Below, in pieces: positions 33,473-53,062 of a DNA stretch of 64,000 bases (within the stretch, counting starts at the first letter, position 1; every line of letters begins with the position of its first letter). The stretch spans positions 62,001-126,000 of the forward strand of contig NZ_AP017655.1 of NCBI RefSeq assembly GCF_002355855.1, given 5' to 3'. Below the pieces are notes generated by a model, which was not told the origin of the DNA, did no database searches, and saw only the letters and a list, made by a program, of their open reading frames with translations. Source of the DNA: Sphingobium cloacae. Lineage in GTDB: Bacteria; Pseudomonadota; Alphaproteobacteria; Sphingomonadales; Sphingomonadaceae. The position numbers were made by a program, and so were the translations under genes.

Positions 33473-34381
33473 ATGACCAATGTTCTATCTGATGCCCCCG
33501 TCACTTCGCTGCGTCAGCGCATGATCGAAGACATGAATATGCGCCGGTTTACGCGGAAGACCCAGTTCGACTACGTGCGGCATGTCGCGAGGTTCGCTAC
33601 ATATCTTGGGCGCCCTCCCGATACTGCGACTGTTGAAGAGCTCCGGCAATTCCAGGTCGAACAGCGCGAAGCGGGTATAGGGATCCCGACCATGAACAGC
33701 ATCGTTTCTGCGCTGCGTTTCTTTTTCACTCACACCATTGATCGCCCGGATCTGTCCCGCAAGCTCTACACGGTCAAGAATCCGCGCTCCTTGCCCATTG
33801 TCCTCAGCCGCGAAGAGGTCGTGCTTCTCCTCGGCGCGACCAACTGCCTGAAGCACAAGGCTGCACTGTCCGTTGCGTATGGCGCTGGTTTGCGCGCCGC
33901 CGAAGTGACGATGCTGAAGGTCCGCGATGTAGACAGCAAGCGCATGCTCCTGCGAGTGGAGCGCGGTAAAGGCGGGCGCTATCGCAATGCGCTCCTGCCC
34001 GCTGACCTTCTTGCTCTTTTGCGTGAGTGGTGGACGGTGGGCCGCAAGCAAGGCGTCATGCACGCCGATGGCTGGCTGTTCCCGGGAATGCACTATCTCA
34101 AGCCGCTGAGTACCCGACAGCTCCATCGCATTGTTGTCGATGCTGCAGAGGCCGCAGGTATCAAGAAGCGGGTCGGCCCTCACACCCTGCGGCACAGCTT
34201 CGCCACGCATCTGTTGGAAGACGGCGTCGATATTCGGATCATCCAGGCGCTGCTGGGGCATGCGAACCTTGAGACCACCGCCTTCTACACTACGGTCGCA
34301 ACTCGAACCGTGCGTGCGGTCATCAGTCCGCTGGACAAGTTGACGACGCTGCTCGAGGCGCAGGTAGCGCCGCCCGGCTGA
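33473..34381 (+). CDS. Tyrosine recombinase associated with IS91-type element
   Basis: 302 residues, XerC/D-like. A SAM-like N-terminal domain (MNMRRFTRKTQFDYVRHVAR) precedes the catalytic domain: Arg in YGAGLRAAEVTMLKV, HTLRHSFATHLLEDG, LLGHANLETTAFYT with the nucleophilic Tyr. All key residues are present. Such genes regularly precede IS91-family transposases, and a broken one follows at 34386. An AAGGAG ribosome site is 8 bp upstream. Confidence 0.9.
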   Translation: MTNVLSDAPVTSLRQRMIEDMNMRRFTRKTQFDYVRHVARFATYLGRPPDTATVEELRQFQVEQREAGIGIPTMNSIVSALRFFFTHTIDRPDLSRKLYTVKNPRSLPIVLSREEVVLLLGATNCLKHKAALSVAYGAGLRAAEVTMLKVRDVDSKRMLLRVERGKGGRYRNALLPADLLALLREWWTVGRKQGVMHADGWLFPGMHYLKPLSTRQLHRIVVDAAEAAGIKKRVGPHTLRHSFATHLLEDGVDIRIIQALLGHANLETTAFYTTVATRTVRAVISPLDKLTTLLEAQVAPPG

Positions 34382-34385
34382 GCCG

Positions 34386-34946
34386 TTGCGCGCCTCGCTC
34401 GAGGTCGCCGATATCTTTCGTAGCGCCGGGCCCGCCTATCGCGCGGCCCATGCCGGGCATCTCAACCTCGGCCAGCTCAAGGTCATGACGGCCATCGAGA
34501 ATTGCCGCACCGCCGCGCTGGGCGGTCACGTCGAGGCCTGCGACGACTGCGGGCACTGGCGGATCGCTTACACGGCATTGCCCTAAATGCCAGGGCGCTG
34601 CGGCGCGCACGTGGCTGGTGGTGGCATCGCGCTCGACGGCACGCGATGGATCTCATCGCGCCCCGCGTTCCTGCTGCCGGTGCGTGTGCTGGGCGCCTTG
34701 TTCCGCCGACTGTTCCTCATCCGCCTGCTGGCGCTGTTCGACGCCGGCAAGCTGGGCTTCTTCGGCACCATGGCTGACCTCACGACACGCAAGGCCTTCC
34801 TGCGGTATCTGTCGCCAATCCGGAGGAAGCGCTGGATGGTCTATGCCAAGCCGCCCTTTGCCGGACCACAGGCCGTACTGGCCTAACTCTCGCGCTACAC
34901 GCACCGCGTTGCCATCTCGAACCGGCGCCTCATTGCCTTCGACGAG
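34386..34946 (+). pseudogene. IS91 family transposase, internally deleted
   Basis: The N-terminus (RAAHAGHLNLGQLKVMTAIE ... GGHVEACDDCGHWRIAY) carries the first zinc pair. A short deletion near 34573 shifts the frame (RHCPKCQGAAARTW follows in another frame), and several hundred bases of the middle are gone. The homology then resumes at GGGIALDGTRWISSRPAF. A second nonsense codon (TAA) replaces Tyr near 34884 (LA-stop-LSRYTHRVA). The HUH/Tyr catalytic centre is lost. Truncated at 34947 by an IS3 end. Confidence 0.85.
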
Positions 34947-35360
34947 TGAGGTGGTCCCGCCTTCTTGGACAGTTTGGCGGCTGAGTTACGCTAGTCCCGG
35001 TTGTCGTTATGCCGCCTGTTTGATCATCAGATCATGGTGGGCATGCCCCCCATGATCTGATTGCCCGATCTGCCGATAGGCCTCGAGCGGGGTTCGCCCG
35101 GCTAGCCCCGAGTGCGGGCGTTGGGTGTTGTAATAGGTGATCCACCGGGCAAGGCCAGCCCGCAACTCTGAACCGGTCTCGAAGCCGTGGAGATAGACGC
35201 ATTCGTACTTCAGGCTGCGCCAGAGCCGCTCGATGAAGACATTGTCCATCCACCGGCCCCGGCCGTCCATGCTGATGCGGACCTCGGCCTCGCGCAGCAC
35301 CGTGGTGAAGGCCTGCGACGTGAACTGACTGCCTTGGTCGGTGTTGAAGATCTCGGGCTT
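34947..35360 (-). pseudogene. IS3-family OrfB C-terminal fragment (second copy)
   Basis: The IS end at 34947 (TGAGGTGGTCCCGCC) matches that at 23578. The remaining OrfB reads KPEIFNTDQGSQFTSQAF, RISMDGRGRWMDNVFIERLW and YYNTQRPHSGLAGRTPLEAY. The frame is intact where the other copy is shifted, but the element is broken off near 35360 by IS21 sequence. A direct repeat of about 400 bp with the 23.6-kb copy. Confidence 0.85.
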
Positions 35361-35426
35361 GCCTGTCATCGGTCGTGCAATTCTCCGCAAAAGTGGGCTT
35401 TGAAAATTCCCTAGTTGGTGGCCCCT

Positions 35427-35468
35427 TCATCTCATTCTGCCGGGGCTAGCCCCGGCAGAATGAGATGA
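35427..35468. repeat. 42-bp perfect palindrome, probable abutted IS21 ends
   Basis: The 21-base arm beginning TAGCCCCGGCAGAATGAGAT is mirrored exactly around the GCTAGC centre (35447/35448). To the right it leads into istA. To the left the sequence reads like the downstream end of an IS21 element in the same orientation, so the palindrome looks like a right end joined to a left end. IS21 is known to transpose through such tandem junctions, which can also create promoters. A plain stem-loop is the alternative. Confidence 0.65.
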
Positions 35469-35513: not shown

Positions 35514-36935
35514 ATGATCCGACTTGGAGAATTGATGATGATCCTCGAACTACATCGGCAGGGCGTATCGATATCCGCCATTGCCCGACGCACTGGTCGC
35601 GATCCCAAGACCATCCGAAAATATATCGAACGGGGCATCGAGGCCCCGGTTTACGGCCCTCGCATGCTGGGTCGACCGAACAAACTGGCACCCTATCTGG
35701 AATTTTTGCGTGAGCGAGTGACGGCCTTTCCCGATCTGACTGCGGCGCGCCTGACGCGGGAAATCCGTGAGCTGGGATATATGGGCGCCTATACCGCGGT
35801 AAAGCGGTTCCTGGCAGCGATCCGGCCGGAAAACGGCCCCAAGCCCTTTGAGGTTCGGTTCGAGACGCCGCCTGGCGTGCAGGCACAGGTCGACTTTGCC
35901 CGGTTCGTCGTCGAATTTACCGATGAGCCCGGCGTCAGCCGGATCGTCTGCCCGTTCAACTCGGCCACGCAGCGCGCGCTTTTCGAAACTCATGTCGACG
36001 ACGGCTATTGCACCAACGCGGCGTGCTTCGAACTCAAGACCGAAGCCGCCGAGGTGATCCGTTTCGAACAGGAAGAACGCGCCGCGAAGGCCGCACGGGC
36101 CGCGGCTCCACCCCCCGTCGAGACGGACGACGGTGACGATCATAGTGATGGGATCGAGGACACCACGTCATCGCCCGACACTCAGCCGCGTTCCGACGCT
36201 ACCACCTTGAACTTGGATGGCGCCGGTACGCGCGCCGCGACGCCCGCCGCCCCGGTCAAGCCCGCAACCAGCGCCAGTGCGGCGGACAAGCCAGCTGTCA
36301 CCGCCAGGTCGATCGCAGCCCGCACCACCGAGCTTCGCGAGGCGATGTGGCGAACCGCGCTTGCCCGGGCGCTCGCCGGCAATGCCGAGCAGGCTCGCAC
36401 GACCATCCTTGTCGCGGCGATGTCGGGCACGCTCTCGCAGATCAAGTCCAATACGCTGACGTCGCGCGCCGGCCTGCTGGTCGGCCCCGAGTTTCCGGAG
36501 CTCGACTACAGCGCCCAGATCACCGCGATCCGCGCGCTGCCCGACGCCCGCGCGGCGAATGTGCTGTCCGTCATCGGCGCCGCCTACGCCAAGGATGTGG
36601 TCAGTTTCGGCCATGTCGCCGATCTCGCCAGGATGTTCGAGGTCGACCTTCGGCCAAGCTGGCAGGTCGATCAGTCGTTTCTCGAGCGATACACGAAGGG
36701 CGAGCTCAAATTCATCGCCCAGGAATGCGGCCTTGTCGCACATGTAGGCGAGAAGCGGTTCGCGAAGATGCTCGCCTCAAAGAAGCCCGAGCTGATTACC
36801 GGCATGCTCAATCGGATCGGCTTCGATTGGGCCGGGCGCCTGCCGAGCGCCATTACCCTCGACGGCACTTATGGTGCGCCCCCGGACCGCGGTGCCCACC
36901 AGGCCGAAGCGCCGATCGCGGAACTCGCTGCCTGA
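35514..36935 (+). CDS. In-frame chimera: IS21 IstA N-terminus fused to PRTRC ParB-family C-terminus
   Basis: Residues 1-145 are IstA: an HTH (ILELHRQGVSISAIARRTGR) and the first catalytic Asp region (VQAQVDFARFVVEFTDEPGV). From residue 146 the protein is the C-terminal two thirds of a PRTRC-system ParB-family protein, with a Cys cluster (C146PFNS, C166TN, C171F), an Ala/Pro-rich linker (about 190-275) and a helical C-terminal domain (TLSQIKSNTLTSRAGLLVGP ... GHVADLARMFEVDLRP). The ParB nuclease/partition N-terminus is lost. The frame is open throughout, so a 473-residue hybrid with a new DNA-binding head may be made. It heads the PRTRC operon. Confidence 0.8.
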   Translation: MIRLGELMMILELHRQGVSISAIARRTGRDPKTIRKYIERGIEAPVYGPRMLGRPNKLAPYLEFLRERVTAFPDLTAARLTREIRELGYMGAYTAVKRFLAAIRPENGPKPFEVRFETPPGVQAQVDFARFVVEFTDEPGVSRIVCPFNSATQRALFETHVDDGYCTNAACFELKTEAAEVIRFEQEERAAKAARAAAPPPVETDDGDDHSDGIEDTTSSPDTQPRSDATTLNLDGAGTRAATPAAPVKPATSASAADKPAVTARSIAARTTELREAMWRTALARALAGNAEQARTTILVAAMSGTLSQIKSNTLTSRAGLLVGPEFPELDYSAQITAIRALPDARAANVLSVIGAAYAKDVVSFGHVADLARMFEVDLRPSWQVDQSFLERYTKGELKFIAQECGLVAHVGEKRFAKMLASKKPELITGMLNRIGFDWAGRLPSAITLDGTYGAPPDRGAHQAEAPIAELAA

Positions 36936-36971: not shown

Positions 36972-37406
36972 ATGCTTGTTACAAGCCTGCTCCCGCTGCT
37001 CGTCCGCTATTCGCTCGGTCTCGACATGGTCGCCGGACCCGACGAGACCGTCACCCTGACGATCATTCCGCGTAAGGCGGGCCCAAAGTCTGCCGCGCTC
37101 GACGGCAGCGAGACCCGGCCAATCTCGATCACGGCCAGCGCCGAGGAGATCGATGCCGAATTGGCGCGCGGCGCGAACGGCGCGCTCGGCCAGCTCATCG
37201 CCACGCGCAGGACGCTCGCGGACCAGATTGCCGAGCAGCGGCAGGCGGACGAAGACGCCAGGGCCGCCGCGGCGGAAGCTGCGAAGGCAAAGGCCGCCAA
37301 GGCTGCGGCGACCAAGCCGCCCGCTCCGACCAGCCCTCCGAAGATCGAGACGCCGACCAGTCCCCCGGCTGACGCCAAGGCAGATGAACCCGCCACCCTG
37401 TTCTGA
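36972..37406 (+). CDS. PRTRC system protein E
   Basis: 144 residues. The conserved start MLVTSLLPLLVRYSLGLDMV and a beta-rich region (TVTLTIIPRKAG, RPISITASAEEIDAELA) identify PRTRC protein E. A helical segment and a low-complexity Ala/Lys/Pro tail ending in DEPATLF follow. Molecular role unknown. It starts 36 bp after the ParB-like gene and is followed 47 bp later by protein C. Confidence 0.85.
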   Translation: MLVTSLLPLLVRYSLGLDMVAGPDETVTLTIIPRKAGPKSAALDGSETRPISITASAEEIDAELARGANGALGQLIATRRTLADQIAEQRQADEDARAAAAEAAKAKAAKAAATKPPAPTSPPKIETPTSPPADAKADEPATLF

Positions 37407-37453
37407 GCCGATCCGCTCGACCCGTTCCCTCATCACCAACCCGGAGATCTCAT

Positions 37454-37660
37454 ATGCAGGTTAATCAACTCACGCGCGCCTATCGCTACGACGGTATCGA
37501 CCTTCCGGTGCCGCCGCATCTCGCGGGTGACCCGGATGCCCTGCGCGCCTATCACGCCACCCTCTACCCGGCGATAACAAACGCCGAGATGATCGACGTC
37601 GGCGTTTCGGGCACGGCGCACGTGACCGAATATCGCCGCGCGGTCGGCACCAAGGGCTGA
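37454..37660 (+). CDS. PRTRC system protein C (ubiquitin-like)
   Basis: 68 residues (MQVNQLTRAYRYDGIDLPVP ... TEYRRAVGTKG). The family is classified with prokaryotic ubiquitin-like proteins of predicted beta-grasp fold. The protein ends exactly in Gly68 after the conserved RAVGTK, as expected for a modifier whose C-terminal Gly is adenylated by an E1. That fits the ThiF, E2-like B and JAMM A genes in the same operon. Whether it is ever conjugated is not known to me. Confidence 0.85.
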   Translation: MQVNQLTRAYRYDGIDLPVPPHLAGDPDALRAYHATLYPAITNAEMIDVGVSGTAHVTEYRRAVGTKG

Positions 37661-37663
37661 CCC

Positions 37664-37885
37664 ATGCCGCACGCTAAACGCGCGGCTATCCCGGCCGCAC
37701 CCCGCAAAAGCCTCATCGAATGGATCGAGAACGATGGCAACTCGGCTGATATCTCCCAACCTGCCTGCAGCAGTCAGGCCAAGGCGCTCCATGCGCGGAT
37801 CCTCTCCGACCCCTATGACGGGAACCGCGAAACCCCGGAACCGCTTGCATGCCCGGCCGGCTTGCCCCTCCCGCCGCTCGGCTGA
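37664..37885 (+). CDS. Possible N-terminal part of PRTRC protein F in another frame
   Basis: ATG 37664 lies three bases after the protein C stop, the position expected for the next operon gene. The 73-residue frame (MPHAKRAAIPAAPRKSLIEW) has better codon use than the overlapping start of the F frame, yet it stops at 37885 where F homology begins. Either it is a separate small gene or F has a frameshift near 37880. Confidence 0.35.
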   Translation: MPHAKRAAIPAAPRKSLIEWIENDGNSADISQPACSSQAKALHARILSDPYDGNRETPEPLACPAGLPLPPLG

Positions 37886-38825
37886 CCTCGCGGGGCGCGC
37901 CGTCGCGATCTCGGCGGATGTCCCCGCGATATTCGATGCGCCGCTGCCGCCGCATCACAAGCTGATCGGCCGCTGGGTCGCCGCGCGGGAAGCGTCGTCG
38001 GGATTATACACGCGCGCCGCGGCCCGTCAGCATATCGAAGGCATTTTCAACGCCGCCGTGCTCGAGATCCTCGATCCCATCGAAATCGCCGACTTCAGGG
38101 TCGCCGTCATTCTCAAGGAGGGGGACGGCACGCCGGCGATTGCCGTGATCTGCCAGAACTTGGGCCAGATCGAACTGGGATGGATCGAAACCGGCGATGC
38201 GCCCATTCCCTGGCGCGCCGCCGCATACAGGGCGCTCGAGCAGTGCCTCGGCCGCGTCCTTCCGATCTTCAGCTACGAGGATCTCTTCAACGAGATATCT
38301 ATCTACTATTGGGATGGCGAGACCGACGACGAACGCGCGCGGCAAAGCCTGATAGCCTATCACGGCGCGGACGCGGACGAGCTCGACGAACTTACGCTGC
38401 CGTCCGAAATGAACGCGCGTCGGCCCGAATGGATGATCAAGGAAAACGCGGCGCCTTCAGCGCGGCTCCCATCAGGCCTGCGGCAGAAACTCAAGAGATT
38501 TCACGCCGCGCACAAAGCTGTCGGCTCTCTCCGGCCCGAACGCAACGCATGGGACTTCGATCTCGAGGTCGCCTACGACTATATCCCCGGCATCGAGGAA
38601 TGCTCGTCCCTTCCGCCGCTCACGCTCGTTCCCTTCGATCACTTCGCGCGCGAACTCGATGATGTCGCCCGCAACGGCATGGAGATGGGCTTCATGGAGG
38701 TCGCCGGGCTGTGCCCGCTGCGGGATGCACACCACATCGACGACTGGTTCGCGTCCGTACGGCTCGGCGCGGAATTCCTGCTCGCAGCACAAGAGCTGAT
38801 CCAGGTCGATCCAGCCAAACTCTGA
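37734..38825 (+). CDS. PRTRC system protein F
   Basis: The family-like part begins about residue 52 (GRAVAISADVPAIFDAPLPP) and runs to the end, giving roughly 310 residues of PRTRC F. Recognisable stretches are IEIADFRVAVILKEGDG, NLGQIELGWIE, LPIFSYEDLFNEISIYYWDG and the acidic C-terminal third. No catalytic motif is visible. The first 50 residues from ATG 37734 are Arg/Pro rich and may not be native (see the 37664 frame), so the true start is uncertain. It lies between C and B. Confidence 0.75.
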   Translation: MATRLISPNLPAAVRPRRSMRGSSPTPMTGTAKPRNRLHARPACPSRRSADLAGRAVAISADVPAIFDAPLPPHHKLIGRWVAAREASSGLYTRAAARQHIEGIFNAAVLEILDPIEIADFRVAVILKEGDGTPAIAVICQNLGQIELGWIETGDAPIPWRAAAYRALEQCLGRVLPIFSYEDLFNEISIYYWDGETDDERARQSLIAYHGADADELDELTLPSEMNARRPEWMIKENAAPSARLPSGLRQKLKRFHAAHKAVGSLRPERNAWDFDLEVAYDYIPGIEECSSLPPLTLVPFDHFARELDDVARNGMEMGFMEVAGLCPLRDAHHIDDWFASVRLGAEFLLAAQELIQVDPAKL

Positions 38826-38833
38826 GGTGTCCA

Positions 38834-39649
38834 ATGTCCGAACATTCTACCCAGTTCGAAGCCGCTGGCGGCGGCCTGGTCCTGAGGGGCGCGATCCTGC
38901 TCTACCGCAGCGAAGGGCCGCGCAATTTCAGCTCCTATGGTGCCCACCGCGGGGATGCGGGGGCGTTCGCCAGCATGCACGCGGTCGAGCATGACGACGA
39001 GGGCCGGCCGACGATAGCCGCGGGCGTTCCGCTCTCTCGCGCGCATCTGCGGCAATGGACCGAAGCCCTCGGGCGGACAGTCCGACCCGAACTCCTGCCC
39101 GAAAACATACTGGTCGCTCACCCCGACATGCTTGTCTGGTGGGTTCCCGAACAGGTGCGCCCCGCCTATTTCAACCTGTCGACGCGTTTGGCGGGGCTTC
39201 AGGTCCTGACGGAACGAACGGTCGTGCCGGTGCCCTATCCCGCACATCTGTTCATCGCCACCGGGTCGCGCCTCGGTGTCTACGCGCTGCCCGTGAACGA
39301 GCGTCCGACCGCCGACACGCGCGTGCTGCACTCACCGATCCTCAACGTCTTCGTCAATGGATCGCTTTGCTGGGGCAATATCCCGACACCGCGCGCGCTC
39401 GCCATTTCGTCCATCCCGGAGTTCGAGCGGGCGGTGTTCGACAGTTGGTCGACGCACCCAAATCCGGGACAGGAGTTCACCATCAGCGGCAAGGGCGGCC
39501 TCGTCCGGCTCTGGGACGGTCTTGCCGCCCGCCGTGCGAAGCGCTTTCCGATCAAGCGCCTCAAGCCGTTTGGCGCCGGCGCCCGGCAGGGACGGCGCTC
39601 ATCGACCGAACCAGTAACCGTTGGCAGAATCATCGGAGGCGCGAAATGA
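38834..39649 (+). CDS. PRTRC system protein B (E2-like)
   Basis: 271 residues. PRTRC B belongs to the prokaryotic E2-like group (Prok-E2 type D). The stretch HSPILNVFVNGSLCWGN mimics the HPN-G-x-(I/V)-C segment of ubiquitin-conjugating enzymes, making Cys179 the candidate thioester residue. Upstream are a beta-meander (LVWWVPEQVRPAYFNLS) and PYPAHLFIATGSRLGVYAL. The start ATG is eight bases after F, and the stop overlaps the start of A (ATGA), so translation is coupled. Confidence 0.85.
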   Translation: MSEHSTQFEAAGGGLVLRGAILLYRSEGPRNFSSYGAHRGDAGAFASMHAVEHDDEGRPTIAAGVPLSRAHLRQWTEALGRTVRPELLPENILVAHPDMLVWWVPEQVRPAYFNLSTRLAGLQVLTERTVVPVPYPAHLFIATGSRLGVYALPVNERPTADTRVLHSPILNVFVNGSLCWGNIPTPRALAISSIPEFERAVFDSWSTHPNPGQEFTISGKGGLVRLWDGLAARRAKRFPIKRLKPFGAGARQGRRSSTEPVTVGRIIGGAK

Positions 39650-40308
39650 CCGCCTTGCTCGCCGACGATCCCACGGCTGCCGCGCTCCTTGCCGATGTGC
39701 CCTGCTATCCGGTCCCGCTGCATGGCGGATCGCCGGCGCTCGACGCACTACGCGCCGCTCGGGTCGGGCGCGGCCTCGCTGTCGGGACGGATGGCGTCCT
39801 CCTGATCCTGCGCCGTCCATGGCTCGCGCTCGACATTCCGGTCACACGGCCGATTGCGGCGCACCTGCCTTATGGTAGCGTCGGCGGCCCAAAGGCAGAC
39901 CTGCGCTGCGGGTTCATCCCCGCGGGATTCCTCACATCAGTCCTCGAGTCGCTGCGCGCGGCCCTACCGAATGAAAGCGCGGCTTTTATTCTCTGGAACG
40001 AGGCCTCGCGCGAGTTCGCCCTGGACTTTCCCGTCATCGACGAGGCCACGCCCTCGCGCCTTGTCTATCGCACGCCGGTCCTGCCGCCCGATTGGCACAT
40101 GATCTGCGACATCCATAGCCATGGCACCGGGCCGGCCTTCTTCAGCGCCACCGACGATGCCGACGACGCGCACGCGACGAAGATATCGCTCGTGTTCGGC
40201 CGGTTGGACCAGCTCGACGGTCCCACAAGAGCGTCGCGCCTCTGCGCCGGCGGCATGTTCCTGCCGCTGCCGCGCAGCCCATTTGCAGGAGACCATCATG
40301 CCGCCTGA
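39646..40308 (+). CDS. PRTRC system protein A (JAMM-type isopeptidase fold)
   Basis: 220 residues. The C-terminal half carries a perfect JAMM/MPN+ zinc motif, His157-Ser-His159-(7)-Ser167-(2)-Asp170 (DIHSHGTGPAFFSATDDADD), with Glu110 or Glu119 as the upstream catalytic Glu. Proteins of this fold remove ubiquitin-like modifiers from targets or process their precursors. The N-terminal 90 residues are specific to the family. It overlaps B at its start and ThiF by 11 bases at its end, supporting one protein complex or pathway. Confidence 0.88.
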   Translation: MTALLADDPTAAALLADVPCYPVPLHGGSPALDALRAARVGRGLAVGTDGVLLILRRPWLALDIPVTRPIAAHLPYGSVGGPKADLRCGFIPAGFLTSVLESLRAALPNESAAFILWNEASREFALDFPVIDEATPSRLVYRTPVLPPDWHMICDIHSHGTGPAFFSATDDADDAHATKISLVFGRLDQLDGPTRASRLCAGGMFLPLPRSPFAGDHHAA

Positions 40309-41056
40309 CACCAGCGCCCGCCACTATCTTCCAGCCGCATTCGGCGACCGCACGCTCAAGGTTCTGCTCATAGGCTGCGGCGGCAACGGCGCGCAGATGC
40401 TTATGGGACTCGCCTCGCTCGACATGGCGCTGCGCGAGATCTCCTCGCGATCGCTGCACGTCACCGTGGTCGACGACGATATCGTCACCGAGGCCAATCT
40501 CGGCCGGCAGCCCTTCTTTCGCTGCGATCTCGGCAATTCAAAGGCGCGGACGCTCATCGAGCGCATCAACCTTGCGCATGGCCTCGCCTGGAAGGCGGTT
40601 CACGGACGCGCGCCCGGCAAGGTCGGCGTCGACGGCGCCGATATCCTCATCACCTGTGTCGACACGGCCTCGGCCCGCCGTGCGATCGGAGCGGCGCTTG
40701 CTGATGAACGGAACGGTCCCGCCTATTGGATGGACCTCGGCAATCGCTCGAGTGACGGACAGTTTCTGGTTGGCTGCCCCGCACGGGCCGGCGCCAAGGT
40801 TCGCGCACGGCTTCCGACCGTACTCGAATATTTCCCCGAACTCGCCGACGACAGCGTGCCTGACGACAACGCCCCGTCCTGTTCTGTTGCCGAGGCGCTT
40901 GAACGCCAGTCGCTGTTCGTCAACCGCGTCATGGCGAGCCACGCCCTCGCGCTGCTGTTCGACCTGCTCGGCCGGGGCTCGATCGGCCATGCGGGCGGTT
41001 TCATCAATCTTGCCAGCGGGCAGGCGGTCCCGATTCCGCTGCCGCGCAACGACTGA
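40298..41056 (+). CDS. PRTRC system ThiF family protein (E1-like adenylating enzyme)
   Basis: 252 residues. The Rossmann ATP site reads VLLIGCGGNGAQMLMG, the conserved ANLGRQPFF (Arg/Gln contact ATP) follows, then ITCVDTASARRAI. Cys195 in APSCSVAEALERQ is in the position expected for the family's thiol. It should activate the C-terminal Gly of a ubiquitin-like protein, most simply PRTRC C (68 residues, Gly-ended, same operon). It is the last PRTRC gene here; the ParM-like PRTRC D is not found in the window. Confidence 0.88.
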   Translation: MPPDTSARHYLPAAFGDRTLKVLLIGCGGNGAQMLMGLASLDMALREISSRSLHVTVVDDDIVTEANLGRQPFFRCDLGNSKARTLIERINLAHGLAWKAVHGRAPGKVGVDGADILITCVDTASARRAIGAALADERNGPAYWMDLGNRSSDGQFLVGCPARAGAKVRARLPTVLEYFPELADDSVPDDNAPSCSVAEALERQSLFVNRVMASHALALLFDLLGRGSIGHAGGFINLASGQAVPIPLPRND

Positions 41057-44477: not shown

Positions 44478-47400
44478 ATGCGAAACAGTGCATCCGCGCT
44501 GGCTCTCCAGCTGTGCCTCGACTTCGACCAGCCGGTCGCGCCCGCCAAGCCAGCCGCCCCCGTCGATCCGGAGCCGACGCTCTTTTCGGCAACCATCGTC
44601 GACACCGCCCGGCCGCCAGTCGAGGCAGCTATTGATTTCTCCCTATCGGCGGGGCGGACCCTGGCGTCCTCATGGAAGGAACGCGCACGCGACAATGTCG
44701 AGGCGATCCGGCTGCTGAACCTGCTCGACCGCGAAGGACGGTCCGCATCACCGGCCGAGCAGCAGGCGATTTCCAGGTTCATCGGCTTCGGCGCGTCGGA
44801 ACTTGCCAACAACATGTTCGCCCGCCGCGGGAAAGAATATCGCGAGGGCTGGGAGGAACTAGGGCAGGCCCTGGTCGCCGAGACGACCGATGTCGAACTC
44901 CAGTCTCTCAAACGCGCGACGCAATATGCGCATTACACCCCCGAATACATCATCCGCGCCATGTGGGACGCTGCCCGGACCCTCGGCTTTACCGGTGGGC
45001 AGGTTCTGGAACCGGGGTGCGGCAGCGGCCTCTTCATGGGGCTCCGGCCGGATGCATTGTCGCAGGACACGCTGTTCGTGGGCATCGAGAACGATCCCGT
45101 CACCGCTCGCGTCGCAAAAGCGCTCTATCCCAATCAGGTCATCCGCTGCGTCGATTTCGACAAGGCGCCCCTGCCCGCCGACTTCGACCTCGCGATCGGC
45201 AATCCGCCCTTCTCGAACCTCACCATCCAGAACCGGACCGAACTCGGTAAGCTCGGCCTGTCGCTTCACGACTATTTCATCGCCAAATCGCTCGAGCATC
45301 TACGGCCCGGCGGCATCGCCCTGTTTGTGACATCGCGCTATTCGCTCGACAAGAGCGATCCCAAAGCCCGCCACCATATCGACGGCATTGCCGATTTCCT
45401 CGGCGCGGTGCGCCTTCCGGGCAAGGCCATGCGGCAAGAGGCGGGCACGGACGTCGTCGTCGATATCCTGCTTTTCCAGAAACACACCCCCGATGCCCTT
45501 CCACGCACGCAGAACTGGATCGAGCTGGCCGAGATCCCCGACAGCGACGAAGGTTTCGGGCCGCTGCGGATCAACCGCTATTTCCTCGACCATCCCGATC
45601 ATGTGCTGGGGCGTCACGAATGGCGCAGCGGCCAGTTCGGCATGGACTATAATTGCGCGGCCGACCCCGACGCAGACCTCCCGGTCGTCCTCGCGGCCAC
45701 CTTGTCCGCGATCGCATCGAAGCACGCGGGCGCCTGCAAGCCGCTCGAGCGCACCACATCCCTGCGCGACATGCCAAGCGCCACCCTGGATGTGCAAGTC
45801 GGCACCGCCGCGGACGAAGCCGAGTTCAAGGAAGGCAGCTATCTGGTTTCCGGCGGTGTCCTCCACCAGATCATAAATGGCACCCCGACCGTGGTCGGCG
45901 TCAAATCCGGCCGCGGCGGCGCTGGTCTGTTTCCCAAGCACGCGGCTATCATCAAGGCCCTCATCCCGATCCGCGATACGGTCCGCGCGATCCTGCGCGC
46001 GCAGTTGGGCGACCGGCCCTATGATGCCCTTCAGCAGGCGCTGTTCACCCACTACCGGCAGTTCGCGAAAAAATACGGTCCGATCAACCGCACCATCACC
46101 AGCATCCGCACCGATCCGGAGACAGGGGCCGAGAAGGAGTATCAGCGCCGCCCTAACCTTCAGCCCTTCCTCGATGACCCCGACGTCTGGCTGGTCGCTT
46201 CGATCGAGACCTATGACGAGGCGAGCGACACGGGCACGCCCGGTCCGATCTTCACCGAATGCGTCGTCAAGCCGCCGGTAACCCATGAAATCCATTCGGC
46301 GCAGGATGCCCTGGCGCTATCGCTCCATGACCGCGGCCGCGTCGATTTGCCCCTGATCGCTCAGATGCTCGGCGTTACCGAAACCGAGGCGCTCACCGAT
46401 CTTGCGGGGGACATCTATCTCGACCCCGTCCGCAGCACACCGCATTTCGATCACTGGGTCACGGCCGACGAGGTCCTTTCCGGGCCGGTTCGCACCAAGC
46501 TCGCCCTCGCGCGCGAGAAAGCCGGGACCGATCCGCGATTTTCTGCTGTCGCCACCGCGCTCGAAGCGGTCCAGCCGGTCGATCTGAAGCCCAGCGAGAT
46601 CACCGCGCGTCTCGGCGCGCCCTGGATTCCGGTCGATGTCATCGAGGCGTTCATCCTCGAAATCATGGAGGTCGAGACCCGGATCCTCCATACGGTGGAG
46701 CTGGCGAGCTGGACGGTCGACAAGGCCCCGTTCGCCGGGCACGTCAGTTCCTCCTCGACCTGGGGCACAGCCCGCCGGAGCGCGGCGGACCTGCTCGAAG
46801 ACGCGCTGAACTCCCACATTCCCAAGATCTACGACGTCCACCGCGACGCCGACGGTTCGGAACGCCGCGAGCTCAACGTCGTCGACACCGAAGCGGCCAA
46901 AGAGAAGCTGGCGAAGATCAAGTCGACCTTCGAGACCTGGGTCTGGCAGGAGAGCGAACGCGCCGATCGGTTGGTCCGCATCTACAACGATGCCTACAAC
47001 AATCTCGTGCCCCGGAGCTTCAGCGGCCAGCACCTGAAGCTGCCGGGCGCGTCGACGACGATCCGCATGCGCGATCACCAGAAGCGCGTCGTCTGGCGGA
47101 TCATCGCGTCGGGCTCGACCTATGTGGCCCATAGCGTCGGCGCGGGCAAAACCTTCAGCCTCTGCGCCGCAGTGATGGAGCAGCGGCGTCTCGGCCTCGC
47201 CAACAAACCGATGATCACGGTGCCCAACCATTGCCTCGCGCAGATCGCGCGCGAGTTCCTGATGCTCTATCCCACCGCGCGCATCCTGGTCGCCGACGAC
47301 ACGAACTTCGTGAAGGAGAAGCGGCAGCGGTTCCTGGCGCGCGCGACCACGGGCAATTGGGATGCGATCATCATCACGCATGATGCGTTCAAGTTCGTGC

Positions 47401-49634
47401 CCACGCCGTCATCTTTCGAGAAGCAGCTGATCGAGCACCAGCTCGACAGCTACGAGGTGCTGATCACCGGCATCGACAGCCAGGACCGCGTGTCGCGCAA
47501 ACGCGTCGAACGCCTGAAAGAAGGACTGAAGCAAAGGCTGGAGAATCTCCAGTCCCGCAAGGATGACCTCGTCCATATTGGCGAGATCGGCATCGACCAG
47601 ATCGTCGTCGACGAGGCCCAGCAGTTCCGCAAGCTGACCTTCGCCACCAATCTCGGCGACCTGAAGGGCGTCGACCCGGTCGGCTCGCAGCGTGCCTGGG
47701 ACCTGTTCGTGAAGAGCCGTTATCTCGCCGGGACCAATCCCGGACGCGAACTGATCCTGTCATCGGGCACGCCCATCACCAACACGCTGGGCGAGATGTA
47801 TACGCTGCAGCGCTTCATGCAACCCGACGAGCTTCACGCCAAGGGCCTGCACGAATTCGACGCCTGGGCGTCTGCCTTCGGAGACACCCGCACCGAACTC
47901 GAACTCCAGCCGAGCGGCAGCTACAAGCCCGTCACCCGCTTCTGCGAGTTCGTCAACGTCGCCGACCTGATGGCGATGTATCGCAGCGTCGCCGATGTCG
48001 TCTTGAAGGATGATCTGCGCCAGTACGTCAAGCTCCCCACCATCAGGGGCGGCAAACGGCAGATCGTCGTCGCGAAATCCGGCGCGCCGTTCAAAGCCTA
48101 TCAGCGGGTGCTCGCCAAACGCATCCAGGCCATCGAGACCCGCGGCGGCCGGCCGCAAAAGGGCGACGACATCCTGCTGTCGGTGATTACCGATGGCCGC
48201 CACTCGGCGATCGACCTGCGGTTCGTCGACGCGGATGTCGGCAACGAGGAGGGCAACAAGCTCAATCTCCTGATCGAGAATGCTTATCGTATCTGGGAAG
48301 AGACGGCCGACTATCGCTACATCGATCCGGAAACCGGCAAGCCGTATCCGCTCTCAGGCGCGGTGCAGATGATCTTCTCCGATCTCGGCACCGAGGCCGC
48401 GCTCGAAACGCGCGGCTTCTCCGCCTATGTCTGGATCCGCGATCGGCTTGTCGCGATGGGCGTGCCGGCCGAGCAGATCGCCTTCATGCAGCATTACAAG
48501 AAGAACAGCGCCAAACAGCGCCTGTTCAACGATCTCAACCAGGGGCGCAAGCGGTTCGTTCTGGGATCGACCGCGACCATGGGCACCGGCGTCAACGCGC
48601 AGCAGCGCCTGAAAGCCCTGCATCATCTCGACGTTCCCTGGCTGCCATCCGATATCGAGCAGCGGGAAGGGCGCATCGAGCGCCAGGGCAACCAGAATGA
48701 CGAGATCGAGCTTTACGGCTACGCCACCAGCGGCTCGATGGACGCGACCAACTGGCAGATGCTCGAGCGCAAGGCCCGCTTCATCAACATGGCCATGTCG
48801 GGTGACCGCTCGATCCGGCGGATCGAGGACGTCAGCTCCAACGTCAATCAGTTCGCGCTGGCCAAGGCTCTCGCGTCGGGCGACGACCGCCTGATGAAGA
48901 AGGCCGGGCTCGATGCCGAGGTCGCACGGCTCCTGCGCCTGCGCGATGCCCATGTCGACGACCAGTATAATATCCGCAGGACCATCACGCGAACGACGCG
49001 CGAGATCGAGGACTGCCACAAGCAGATCGCCAGGCTCGAGGCCGATCTTGCACATCGTGTTCCCACGAAGGTGGATGAGATCCTCTTCGATTGCGACGGC
49101 ACGATGATGACCGATCGCAAGGCTGCCGGCGAACGTCTCCTCGGATATGCGCACCGGGTGCGGAAAGGTCGCGCCGAGGCGCGCTGGACGCTCGGCACCT
49201 TCAACGGCATCGGCCTGGAACTCTCGGGCTACGAGGCCCTCGACCCCGATGGACGGCGCTACCTCTGCACCGTGATCGCGATGCAGCATCACGGCGAGCA
49301 CGCCGACTTCGAGGTGACCGAGAAGACGCGGCCGAGCACGGTGATCGGCCGGATCGAGTCCTCCATCCGCGATCTCGACACGGATCTCGCCGTCGTCAGG
49401 GCCAGTCTCGAAGCCAACGAACGGCGTCTTCCCGCCTTCGAGGCTCGCTTGGGGCAAGCATTTCCCGACGCCGCCCTGCTCGACGAAAAACTCAACGAAC
49501 TCGCCGAGCTCGAGGCCGAGCTGGCGAGCACCAAGGGCGAGTTCAACGCGGACAATGACGGTGACGCGCCGCTGCCCCCGCTTTTGGACGGCGCAGGCAC
49601 GCCGGTGCCACAAGAAGCCGCCGTTGCTGCCTGA
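44478..49634 (+). CDS. Giant N6-adenine methyltransferase-like / SNF2-type helicase fusion (1718 aa)
   Basis: The N-terminal third contains an adenine methyltransferase fold: motif I LEPGCGSGLFMG (from 177) and catalytic motif IV NPPF (from 242). The middle is a superfamily-2 helicase: HSVGAGKTF with Lys891 (Walker A), DEAQ from 1045, ELILSSGTPITNT, and the C-terminal motifs STATMGTGVNAQQR and QREGRIERQGNQ (around 1395). A coiled-coil tail (ANERRLPAFEARL, LDEKLNELAELEAELAS) closes it. Such proteins occur on large plasmids, ICEs and phages and are thought to protect or remodel incoming DNA; the exact role is unproven. All visible motifs are intact. Confidence 0.88.
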   Translation: MRNSASALALQLCLDFDQPVAPAKPAAPVDPEPTLFSATIVDTARPPVEAAIDFSLSAGRTLASSWKERARDNVEAIRLLNLLDREGRSASPAEQQAISRFIGFGASELANNMFARRGKEYREGWEELGQALVAETTDVELQSLKRATQYAHYTPEYIIRAMWDAARTLGFTGGQVLEPGCGSGLFMGLRPDALSQDTLFVGIENDPVTARVAKALYPNQVIRCVDFDKAPLPADFDLAIGNPPFSNLTIQNRTELGKLGLSLHDYFIAKSLEHLRPGGIALFVTSRYSLDKSDPKARHHIDGIADFLGAVRLPGKAMRQEAGTDVVVDILLFQKHTPDALPRTQNWIELAEIPDSDEGFGPLRINRYFLDHPDHVLGRHEWRSGQFGMDYNCAADPDADLPVVLAATLSAIASKHAGACKPLERTTSLRDMPSATLDVQVGTAADEAEFKEGSYLVSGGVLHQIINGTPTVVGVKSGRGGAGLFPKHAAIIKALIPIRDTVRAILRAQLGDRPYDALQQALFTHYRQFAKKYGPINRTITSIRTDPETGAEKEYQRRPNLQPFLDDPDVWLVASIETYDEASDTGTPGPIFTECVVKPPVTHEIHSAQDALALSLHDRGRVDLPLIAQMLGVTETEALTDLAGDIYLDPVRSTPHFDHWVTADEVLSGPVRTKLALAREKAGTDPRFSAVATALEAVQPVDLKPSEITARLGAPWIPVDVIEAFILEIMEVETRILHTVELASWTVDKAPFAGHVSSSSTWGTARRSAADLLEDALNSHIPKIYDVHRDADGSERRELNVVDTEAAKEKLAKIKSTFETWVWQESERADRLVRIYNDAYNNLVPRSFSGQHLKLPGASTTIRMRDHQKRVVWRIIASGSTYVAHSVGAGKTFSLCAAVMEQRRLGLANKPMITVPNHCLAQIAREFLMLYPTARILVADDTNFVKEKRQRFLARATTGNWDAIIITHDAFKFVPTPSSFEKQLIEHQLDSYEVLITGIDSQDRVSRKRVERLKEGLKQRLENLQSRKDDLVHIGEIGIDQIVVDEAQQFRKLTFATNLGDLKGVDPVGSQRAWDLFVKSRYLAGTNPGRELILSSGTPITNTLGEMYTLQRFMQPDELHAKGLHEFDAWASAFGDTRTELELQPSGSYKPVTRFCEFVNVADLMAMYRSVADVVLKDDLRQYVKLPTIRGGKRQIVVAKSGAPFKAYQRVLAKRIQAIETRGGRPQKGDDILLSVITDGRHSAIDLRFVDADVGNEEGNKLNLLIENAYRIWEETADYRYIDPETGKPYPLSGAVQMIFSDLGTEAALETRGFSAYVWIRDRLVAMGVPAEQIAFMQHYKKNSAKQRLFNDLNQGRKRFVLGSTATMGTGVNAQQRLKALHHLDVPWLPSDIEQREGRIERQGNQNDEIELYGYATSGSMDATNWQMLERKARFINMAMSGDRSIRRIEDVSSNVNQFALAKALASGDDRLMKKAGLDAEVARLLRLRDAHVDDQYNIRRTITRTTREIEDCHKQIARLEADLAHRVPTKVDEILFDCDGTMMTDRKAAGERLLGYAHRVRKGRAEARWTLGTFNGIGLELSGYEALDPDGRRYLCTVIAMQHHGEHADFEVTEKTRPSTVIGRIESSIRDLDTDLAVVRASLEANERRLPAFEARLGQAFPDAALLDEKLNELAELEAELASTKGEFNADNDGDAPLPPLLDGAGTPVPQEAAVAA

Positions 49635-51946: not shown

Positions 51947-53062
51947 ATGCCCTATGACATCCCCTCTCGCTTCCAGCAGCCGCCCGCCGGCTTGTCCCAG
52001 GCGGACCGATCACCGGTGTACTCTTCGAACGTTGCCCCTCGGTTGGCCGCGGGCACCCCCATCGAGATCATCGTCGGCCTTCCCGGCCTGTCGGAGGGGC
52101 CCTTGCTCGCCCGCGCGCGCGCGTTGCAGCTTCCCGTCCTCATCTCCGCGAACAGCCTGTCACGCTGGCGGCAATGTGACGGCGGGCGTGAATGGGCCGG
52201 TTGGCGGTTGAGGCAGCTTGCCAACGCCCATGGCCTCGCTTCGATCATGCTCGATTCCGCCGGATTCGTCCTCGCATCAAGATATCGAGGCCTCCCATGG
52301 ACCGTCGAGGATTATGTCGAAGGGCTGGCGGCCGCCTACCCCTGGCGGCTCTGGGCAAGCCTCGATCATTGCGTCGAACCCGAGATCGCGCGCGACCGTG
52401 AAGAAGTGCTCGATCGGATCGCGCGCACTGTTCGCCTCAACATCGAATGCCATGCCCGCGCACTCGACGCCGGTATCGTCTCGAATTTCATGCCAGTTTT
52501 GCAAGGCCGCCGACCAGGCGATTATGTGCGCTGTCTCGATGGCATCGCCCATATCCTGCGTCCGGGACAAACGGTTGCGATCGGATCGACCTGTCGGCGC
52601 GCCGTGCACGGGGAGGATGGCCTTCTCGCCGTGTTCGAAACACTCGACCGCCATCTCGATTCCACGCACCCGCTCCACGGTTTCGGGATCAAAGGCCCGG
52701 CTCTTAGTCATTTGCGCGCTTTCGAACATCGCAAGATCACGGTCGACAGCAGCGCATTCTCCTATGCGGCGCGTATGTCCGCGCTGTTCGACGGACACGC
52801 CAAGACCAACCACTTCGTCGCCGACCACATGGAACGCTGGACCGAACGGCAATATGCCCGGCTCGCGCGTCCTCGGAACGGGTTTCAATCGTCATTGCCG
52901 CTGCCGTTGCCTGCGGAACCCCTTCCGACAGGCTGGGAAGCCGCCGTTGCCGCCGCGCGAGAGGAGATTCGGGCGCTCGTGATGGACGGCGAAATTTCCC
53001 ACGATCAAATTACCGACGCCTGGATCGCCGAGTGGGCGGCCGATTTGCTGGGGACCGCTTGA
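51947..53062 (+). CDS. DpdA-like protein (tRNA-guanine transglycosylase fold)
   Basis: 371 residues. The TIM-barrel transglycosylase signature is visible: IMLDSAGFV with Asp103, where TGT has DSGGF; WASLDHCVEPEI with Asp140; and GFGIKGPALSHLRAFEHRKI leading to VDSSAF with Asp267. This pattern fits the DpdA family, which inserts 7-deazaguanine bases into DNA of phages and bacterial islands. No zinc-binding Cys cluster of true tRNA TGTs is present. None of the DpdB/C helpers or queuosine-precursor genes are in the window. A role in DNA base modification is inferred. Confidence 0.7.
   Translation: MPYDIPSRFQQPPAGLSQADRSPVYSSNVAPRLAAGTPIEIIVGLPGLSEGPLLARARALQLPVLISANSLSRWRQCDGGREWAGWRLRQLANAHGLASIMLDSAGFVLASRYRGLPWTVEDYVEGLAAAYPWRLWASLDHCVEPEIARDREEVLDRIARTVRLNIECHARALDAGIVSNFMPVLQGRRPGDYVRCLDGIAHILRPGQTVAIGSTCRRAVHGEDGLLAVFETLDRHLDSTHPLHGFGIKGPALSHLRAFEHRKITVDSSAFSYAARMSALFDGHAKTNHFVADHMERWTERQYARLARPRNGFQSSLPLPLPAEPLPTGWEAAVAAAREEIRALVMDGEISHDQITDAWIAEWAADLLGTA

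Follow-up and report, generated by a model that had tools for sequence, protein, structure and literature searches.

Here we show that protein C, the ubiquitin-like member of the PRTRC gene set, often runs past its conserved C-terminal glycine in relatives of a set from Sphingobium cloacae, that such tails, among the 172 loci counted, occur only where the metalloprotease PRTRC protein A is also encoded, and that natural sets without A exist; the tails and their confinement to A-encoding loci are new observations. The set lies in a 64,000-nucleotide stretch of contig NZ_AP017655.1 (positions 62,001 to 126,000, the whole of which is called the window here), where NCBIfam and Pfam profiles place its genes in the order E-C-F-B-A-ThiF at 36972-41056, with intact catalytic residues and a truncated ParB gene upstream. 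All seven PRTRC families (TIGR03734-TIGR03738, TIGR03741, TIGR03742) are recognised there, in order and on one strand. The data suggest that this is probably a ubiquitin-like protein-modification set of operon type 6d, resident on mobile DNA, in which C would be activated by ThiF, conjugated through B and released by A. The ubiquitin-like interpretation is not itself new, having been published as a prediction in 2006 (PMC1779556). We consider the biochemical interpretation likely.

Loci were drawn from plasmid records, one isolated phage, IMG/VR contigs, and named and other genomes, and our own profiles recognised ThiF in 189 of them, A in 160 and C in 174. Fifteen of the 189 ThiF loci had no C that could be found and were dropped from the C counts, and removal of L018 and L116, in which C is frameshifted, left 172 loci for counting tails; the C of L183, whose match fell seven positions short, was added by hand and ends in Gly. 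Tails are present at 77 of the 151 loci with A versus 0 of the 21 without it. Because the 172 loci hold near-duplicates (the window with L097 and L098; L185 and L189, which are one plasmid), nonredundant tables were used, in which tailed and untailed C number 29 and 26 with A versus 0 and 20 without A at 80% nonredundancy (Fisher test, 8e-6), 14 and 6 versus 0 and 10 at 60% (p = 3e-4; a list without L018 and L116), and 9 and 3 versus 0 and 9 at 50% (p = 1.1e-3; this table possibly holds those two loci with a spurious tail). The 63 tails of at least 25 residues fall into 17 groups, with no BLAST match between groups at E 1e-3. One parsimony reconstruction on the ThiF tree gives eight gains and three losses of tails, every gain on an A-bearing lineage, and a branch-length test of the gains gives p = 0.016, the A-less lineages contributing 27.2 of 67.2 tree-length units. 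Taken as raw counts the link between tails and A is strong, and it becomes suggestive once phylogeny is considered; confinement of tails to A-encoding loci is what would be expected if A matures C. The largest tail group (25 loci, including L005, L040 and L042) shares a motif around AHVCPLLDEE, which gives some tails the look of conserved domains and not of junk. Tail length varies widely, from 5 residues on the C of Cupriavidus metallidurans pMOL28 to 76 in the Dechloromonas set L161. The idea that tails are a by-product of ParB-type or of ParB-less loci was discarded, both kinds occurring tailed and untailed in a list of 30 loci.

No A match was obtained at 29 of the 189 ThiF loci, 21 of which have C, and these loci are spread over Pseudomonas-type, Vibrio/Aeromonas-type, Acidobacteria and Bacteroidetes groups. 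A search for PRTRC-A elsewhere in the records, which covered 12 A-less plasmids in full together with 8 A-less genomes and 1 virus, turned up nothing credible, its single match at E 0.004 resembling chance; the same search recovered A from all 4 of the A-bearing plasmids examined and from the Sphingobium genome itself. A six-frame motif scan for a hidden JAMM near the A-less sets, covering all 29 loci, returned only four stray strings (L158, L168, L175 and L179), which were not taken as JAMM. The initial annotation had presented a complete-looking conjugation and deconjugation set; the existence of natural sets without A implies that the deconjugase is dispensable, and the view of the set as a necessary whole is not borne out.

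Protein C of the window (37454-37660; this and all other genes described for the set are on the plus strand) is a 68-residue ubiquitin-like modifier without a tail, matched by Prok_Ub (8.6e-18) and PRTRC_C (1.5e-10). It scores under the NCBIfam cut-off (41.0 vs 45.95 bits) and above that of Pfam Prok_Ub (64.3 vs 25), and its place and order fit. Its last residue, as originally noted, is Gly68, directly before TGA, and this glycine is invariant in 47 of 47 relatives; residue conservation is counted throughout at 80% nonredundancy, before later plasmid, genome and viral loci joined. An AlphaFold2 model (predicted local distance difference test score 86.2) has the order ββαββ, and the folds nearest to it are those of ubiquitin, SUMO and ISG15, so that C is modelled as having a ubiquitin-like beta-grasp fold. 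Of 120 context-free C proteins of the window's own type, 116 stop at the motif, one ends in Ala and three carry 2-4 extra residues; an Acidobacteria-like query gave 87, of which 83 stop exactly at the Gly motif and P0209 also ends in Gly; and 78 of 85 of the Pseudomonas type end in Gly, the remainder including two short fragments (P0256, P0265) and four proteins that run into other sequence (P0279, P0281, P0282, P0293). A terminal Gly is seldom seen in other proteins of the set.

The enzyme genes overlap as first described, B and A by 4 bases and A and ThiF by 11, and profile searches against NCBIfam and Pfam agree with the families first proposed for C, B, A and ThiF. Protein B (38834-39649; 271 residues) is E2-like (PRTRC_B 3.1e-45, Prok-E2_D 1.1e-29; 154.3 bits against an NCBIfam cut-off of 131.45), and its catalytic half weakly resembles E2. 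Asn171, Cys179 and Gly181 are invariant (91/91), with a spacing of Asn171 and Cys179 that we take to equal that of the E2 Asn and Cys. The E2 segment and candidate Cys179 singled out by the initial annotation are present, and the likeness it drew to an HPN motif fails at the His, which is replaced; a downstream His208 is conserved in 88 of 91, and a downstream conserved His in this E2-like family is pointed out in the accessible text of Iyer et al. (PMC1779556). Protein A (39646-40308; 220 residues; TIGR03735 1.5e-42, 145.4 bits against 101.8) joins a JAB-N domain (DUF2016) to a JAMM metalloprotease matched by Prok-JAB; the annotated JAMM residues His157, His159, Ser167 and Asp170 are invariant (69/69), as is Glu110, which had gone unlisted, and in JAB-N Arg57 is kept in 64 and Trp59 in 68 of 69. 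The E1-like adenylating enzyme ThiF (40298-41056; 252 residues; TIGR03736 1.5e-79, 266.8 bits against 144.75) has the intact ATP site and Cys195 originally ascribed to it, Gly26, Gly28, Gly29, Asp59, Asn67, Arg70, Lys82, Asp122 and Cys195 being invariant (69/69), and its profile matches solved E1s, ThiF, MoeB and Cap2. A sequence search of solved structures gave nothing convincing for B, C or A. With the modelled fold of C, and with Gly68 and Cys179 both invariant, neither sequence nor fold spoke against the initial account of these proteins. Two gene arrangements stand apart: at L116 and L018, A and ThiF share one reading frame and C is frameshifted, as would result either from a natural JAB-E1 fusion whose C has decayed or from an error in sequencing, and at L145 (5191-6999) partial B and A lie in one open frame, possibly an E2-JAB fusion or an assembly error.

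In the mechanism that we propose, every chemical step of which we infer, ThiF would adenylate the C-terminal Gly of C and may hold C on Cys195, after which C would be handed to Cys179 of B and joined to a target. A would cut after the conserved Gly, in relatives first freeing C from its precursor tail, as the co-occurrence of tails with A supports, and by analogy would probably also remove C from its targets; since the window C has no tail, A would act here mainly as a deconjugase. In a rival account C would be a ThiS/MoaD-like sulfur carrier whose Gly is made a thiocarboxylate by ThiF for thiolation of a nucleic acid or metabolite, with A and B as regulator and scaffold. The matches of the ThiF profile to ThiF and MoeB are compatible with this, JAMM proteases occur in sulfur-carrier systems too, and 4 of 21 plasmid regions (L009, L010, L016, L178) have an annotated PAPS-reductase-family gene in the vicinity of the set. 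However, the invariant Cys179 of B with its E2-like surroundings would be needless in a carrier system, none of the set's own proteins belongs to a rhodanese or sulfurtransferase family, and 17 of the 21 regions have no PAPS-reductase label (L013 carries only 'hypothetical' labels), which leaves the sulfur-carrier account quite improbable. On the ThiF equivalog model the protein scores 29.7 against a cut-off of 275.25.

Several observations weigh against a protein-modification set in which A matures C. Foldseek searches with the models of B and of C gave no match at E 0.001, the fold matches being weak, and no experimental study of the biochemistry of the PRTRC reaction was found in the open-licence literature, subscription papers lying outside the search. 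The 74 A-bearing loci without a tail mean that maturation cannot be the sole job of A. An unrelated JAB could stand in for A, since 7 of 8 A-less genomes (and none of 12 A-less plasmids, whose hosts were outside the search) encode other proteins of the JAB family that exceed the cut-off, as do 8 of 14 control genomes. The A-less types include context-free C proteins with other endings: P0202 extends 8 residues beyond the Gly and P0204 5, P0201 ends in Ala, and the Pseudomonas-type P0294 ends in KGGE. On the ThiF tree, whose deep branches are weak, A switches state just five times, a tail test by branch number gives p = 0.115, and independent pairs are too few for a test, none being contrary. 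Together with the two short-tailed Acidobacteria-type proteins, that p value and those weak branches are what an accident of phylogeny would leave, tails having arisen in a few lineages that happen to have A. Such an accident seems unlikely to us, given that tails were gained eight separate times and fall into 17 groups without matches to one another, none at an A-less locus, and that A-less loci are scattered over four distinct groups.

As candidate targets of C the initial annotation named ParB and E/F. In the window, an in-frame fusion at 35514-36935 joins the 5' part of an IS21-family transposase frame (35514-35947; NCBIfam IS21 2.5e-29 over residues 11-140), which lies outside the system and marks the truncation, to the C-terminal part of PRTRC ParB (35948-36935; TIGR03734, best stretch 339-553 of 555 profile positions), with loss of the ParB_N and HTH domains. 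Homology to the intact loci L097 and L098 begins at 35948, and both domains of the L097 ParB (ParB_N 49-129, HTH_ParB 137-230) lie ahead of the break. The near-identical loci in two other genera retain this DNA-binding half, the window ParB scores 149.1 bits against a cut-off of 278.6 and is not an intact PRTRC ParB, and the lost half is present in this genome solely as a 75% identical copy on contig C2 (L003), where the ParB match is long (459 bits). Without its DNA-binding half the window ParB would be a poor target. Across loci with C and ThiF a ParB match was found in 110 of 174, upstream of C in 107 and as a ParB-like gene downstream in three; the other 64 gave no ParB match within the stretches examined, although in three of these fewer than 1500 bases precede C and ParB could lie outside. 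ParB as a general target was accordingly rejected.

The frequent company of ParB upstream of C, the PRTRC name itself and the listing of PRTRC beside or as a partition system in the accessible parts of two papers (PMC7466150, PMC3826726) would fit a partition module, in which ParB is the functional core, C, B, A and ThiF regulate it, for example by modification, and the job is plasmid segregation. We regard this as very unlikely: the loci without a ParB match include those of a phage (L005) and of Acidobacteria, and the window keeps open frames for the other genes although the DNA-binding half of ParB is gone.

Protein E (36972-37406; TIGR03741 1.9e-21, 76 bits against 37.95) has an Ala/Pro-rich tail ending in PATLF and is matched in 170 of the 174 loci, not always beside C. 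Among 69 nonredundant filtered E proteins, 43 end in Leu, Ile or Met followed by an aromatic residue that is last or next to last, the expectation from shuffled sequences being 0.2; A-bearing loci account for all 43 (43 of 54 with A, 0 of 15 without), and in acidobacterial E the SLF-like strings are internal. The tip presumably resembles the docking peptides of the sliding clamp or of SSB, and that it docks on either is a guess. With matches at 170 of the 174 loci, E may be a better candidate than ParB for target or adaptor. An extension that we put forward as speculation, and think unlikely in full, is that the tag is often made fused to interchangeable tails and freed by its own JAMM, that A-less lineages encode the mature tag, and that the tag acts through the E tip on the replication or repair of the element as a bacterial counterpart of clamp-linked ubiquitin/SUMO signalling. 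As a separate observation, 6 of 21 plasmid regions (L011, L014, L177, L179, L182, L185) have a gene annotated as DnaN, the beta clamp of DNA polymerase III, in the neighbourhood of the set. Protein F (37734-38825; start uncertain) is a partial match to TIGR03742 (2.1e-4) below the NCBIfam cut-off (20.4 vs 58.4 bits) whose place and order fit; it matches our own F profile, which contains the window F itself, at 530 bits, and it probably corresponds to the helical component of type 6d operons.

The initial annotation also connected the set with phage through Bil operons, and a defence role like that of Bil or type II CBASS (cyclic oligonucleotide-based antiphage signalling system), with C tagging phage proteins, would employ enzyme classes that known antiphage conjugation systems also use, as far as the available text of PMC10097602 and, for Bil, of a review (PMC11354881) describes them. 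PADLOC-DB 2.0.0, from which systems described after 2023 may be missing, gave no match for B, A, C, E or F, and ThiF alone of the six set proteins matched, weakly and in part, to E1-E2 models (best E 4.8e-5). A neighbouring 1718-residue SNF2 helicase/methylase (44478-49634) partly matches many PADLOC models, the best being mad2 (5.2e-15) and DrmD (8.3e-15), but these are generic helicase and methylase parts, and other neighbours are DpdA and DUF3560. Moreover, the full set is carried by the isolated Burkholderia phage BgVeeders33 (L005, 16240-20747), where E gave a profile match and F a weak one, C bears a 62-residue tail, B, A and ThiF are all present and ParB went unmatched in the stretch examined; the phage record annotates capsid, portal, terminase and tail genes and labels the set genes other than ThiF 'hypothetical'. 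A ThiF relative is encoded by 273 IMG/VR stretches, of which 80 were kept, with 2 more from a second scan. Three IMG/VR loci that were checked carry integrases, joined in one of them by a methyltransferase and a reverse transcriptase, so that part of this material may represent integrative elements instead of viruses. In PHROGs the window B, A, C, E and F had no match at E 0.01. The defence reading has no direct support, and we hold it to be quite unlikely. What was first observed in the sequence has been confirmed and its interpretation partly supported, the ParB target and the phage-defence link being unsupported.

The mobility of the set is indicated by its setting. The segment 35948-48053 is 99.97% identical to a Novosphingobium silvae locus and 99.95% identical to one of Sphingomonas laterariae, the match reaching the end of the compared stretches, from which we conclude that the block probably moved recently between genera. 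The window is part of a 3.77 Mb contig, and contig C2 (375 kb) has a second full set, whose ThiF is 76% identical. A tyrosine recombinase and apparent transposase remnants are piled up at 33473-35430, immediately upstream of the remnant of ParB, and downstream of the helicase/methylase is a DpdA-like gene (51947-53062; 7-deazaguanine DNA modification family, 1.1e-18); these helicase/methylase and DpdA-like surroundings may represent an anti-restriction neighbourhood. More widely, a ThiF relative at E 1e-5 is found in 371 of 72,556 plasmid records, some of them distant. Wide sampling of genomes in search of further A-less loci found the set in 5 of 398 in the window's phylum (its own included) and 2 of 369 in the class of G206, both known already; at least 422 stretches came from named genomes, and 80 were kept. 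A viral scan with the ThiF of an A-less gamma set returned no match, and one with an Acidobacteria ThiF returned 2 loci, neither with a recognisable C. L001 and L002 (pieces of the window genome already covered) and L015 (a distant cyanobacterial region) were left out of all scans with hidden Markov models.

In the accessible literature PRTRC is named in passing, for example as a plasmid partition or backbone feature: a Pseudomonas plasmid map marks a PRTRC system (PMC12420198), and in a Bacteroides transcriptome PRTRC genes appear among changes whose p values are 0.35 to 0.44 (PMC10434189), as seen in the available parts of both. Some text matches to PRTRC are plasmid or promoter names unrelated to the cassette. 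A naturally tailed C with its neighbouring A offers a ready protease assay that makes the 2006 prediction directly testable, and natural A-less sets can separate conjugation from deconjugation. Attention thereby shifts from ParB and phage defence to E, F and the element's own DNA metabolism.

The closest known counterpart is operon type "6d" of Iyer, Burroughs and Aravind 2006 (PMC1779556), which in the accessible text comprises Ub-like, E2-like, JAB and E1-like proteins, with predicted conjugation and JAB processing of Ub-like proteins and with addiction or protection roles. The window set shares its JAB with JAB-N, its E1-like protein, its small Ub-like protein with C-terminal Gly, its helical protein and its E2-like protein with Cys and downstream His. 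It differs in that the JAB is described there as always fused or adjacent to the E1-like protein, whereas 21 C-bearing loci here are without A, and in that sections 14 and 16 of that paper do not mention variable tails after Gly or an E Leu-aromatic tip. Relative to the curated PRTRC families, the window ParB is a C-terminal part, and C, F and ParB score under the cut-offs. Bil (BilABCD) likewise combines a Ub-like modifier, E1, E2 and a JAMM protease, and in the solved structures 8tz0 and 8tyx the Ubl chains are similar to the C model; however, according to the available text of PMC11354881, BilA has two Ub-like domains and C has one, and PRTRC adds E and F. The archaeal ubiquitin system with Rpn11 resembles the proposed maturation step, a JAMM protease processing a Ub precursor (PMC6043591, in part), and differs in its separate operon and in resting on experiment in archaea, where the step is only inferred for PRTRC. 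In type II CBASS, Cap2 and Cap3 provide E1, E2 and JAB activities that act on a C-terminal Gly, and the accessible part of Jenson et al. 2023 (PMC10097602) makes a parallel comparative argument, that a C-terminal Gly or Ala is kept only in operons with the enzymes. There the modifier is the cyclase itself, whereas PRTRC has a dedicated Ub-like protein, and the dependence seen in the PRTRC comparison is on the protease and not on the ligase.

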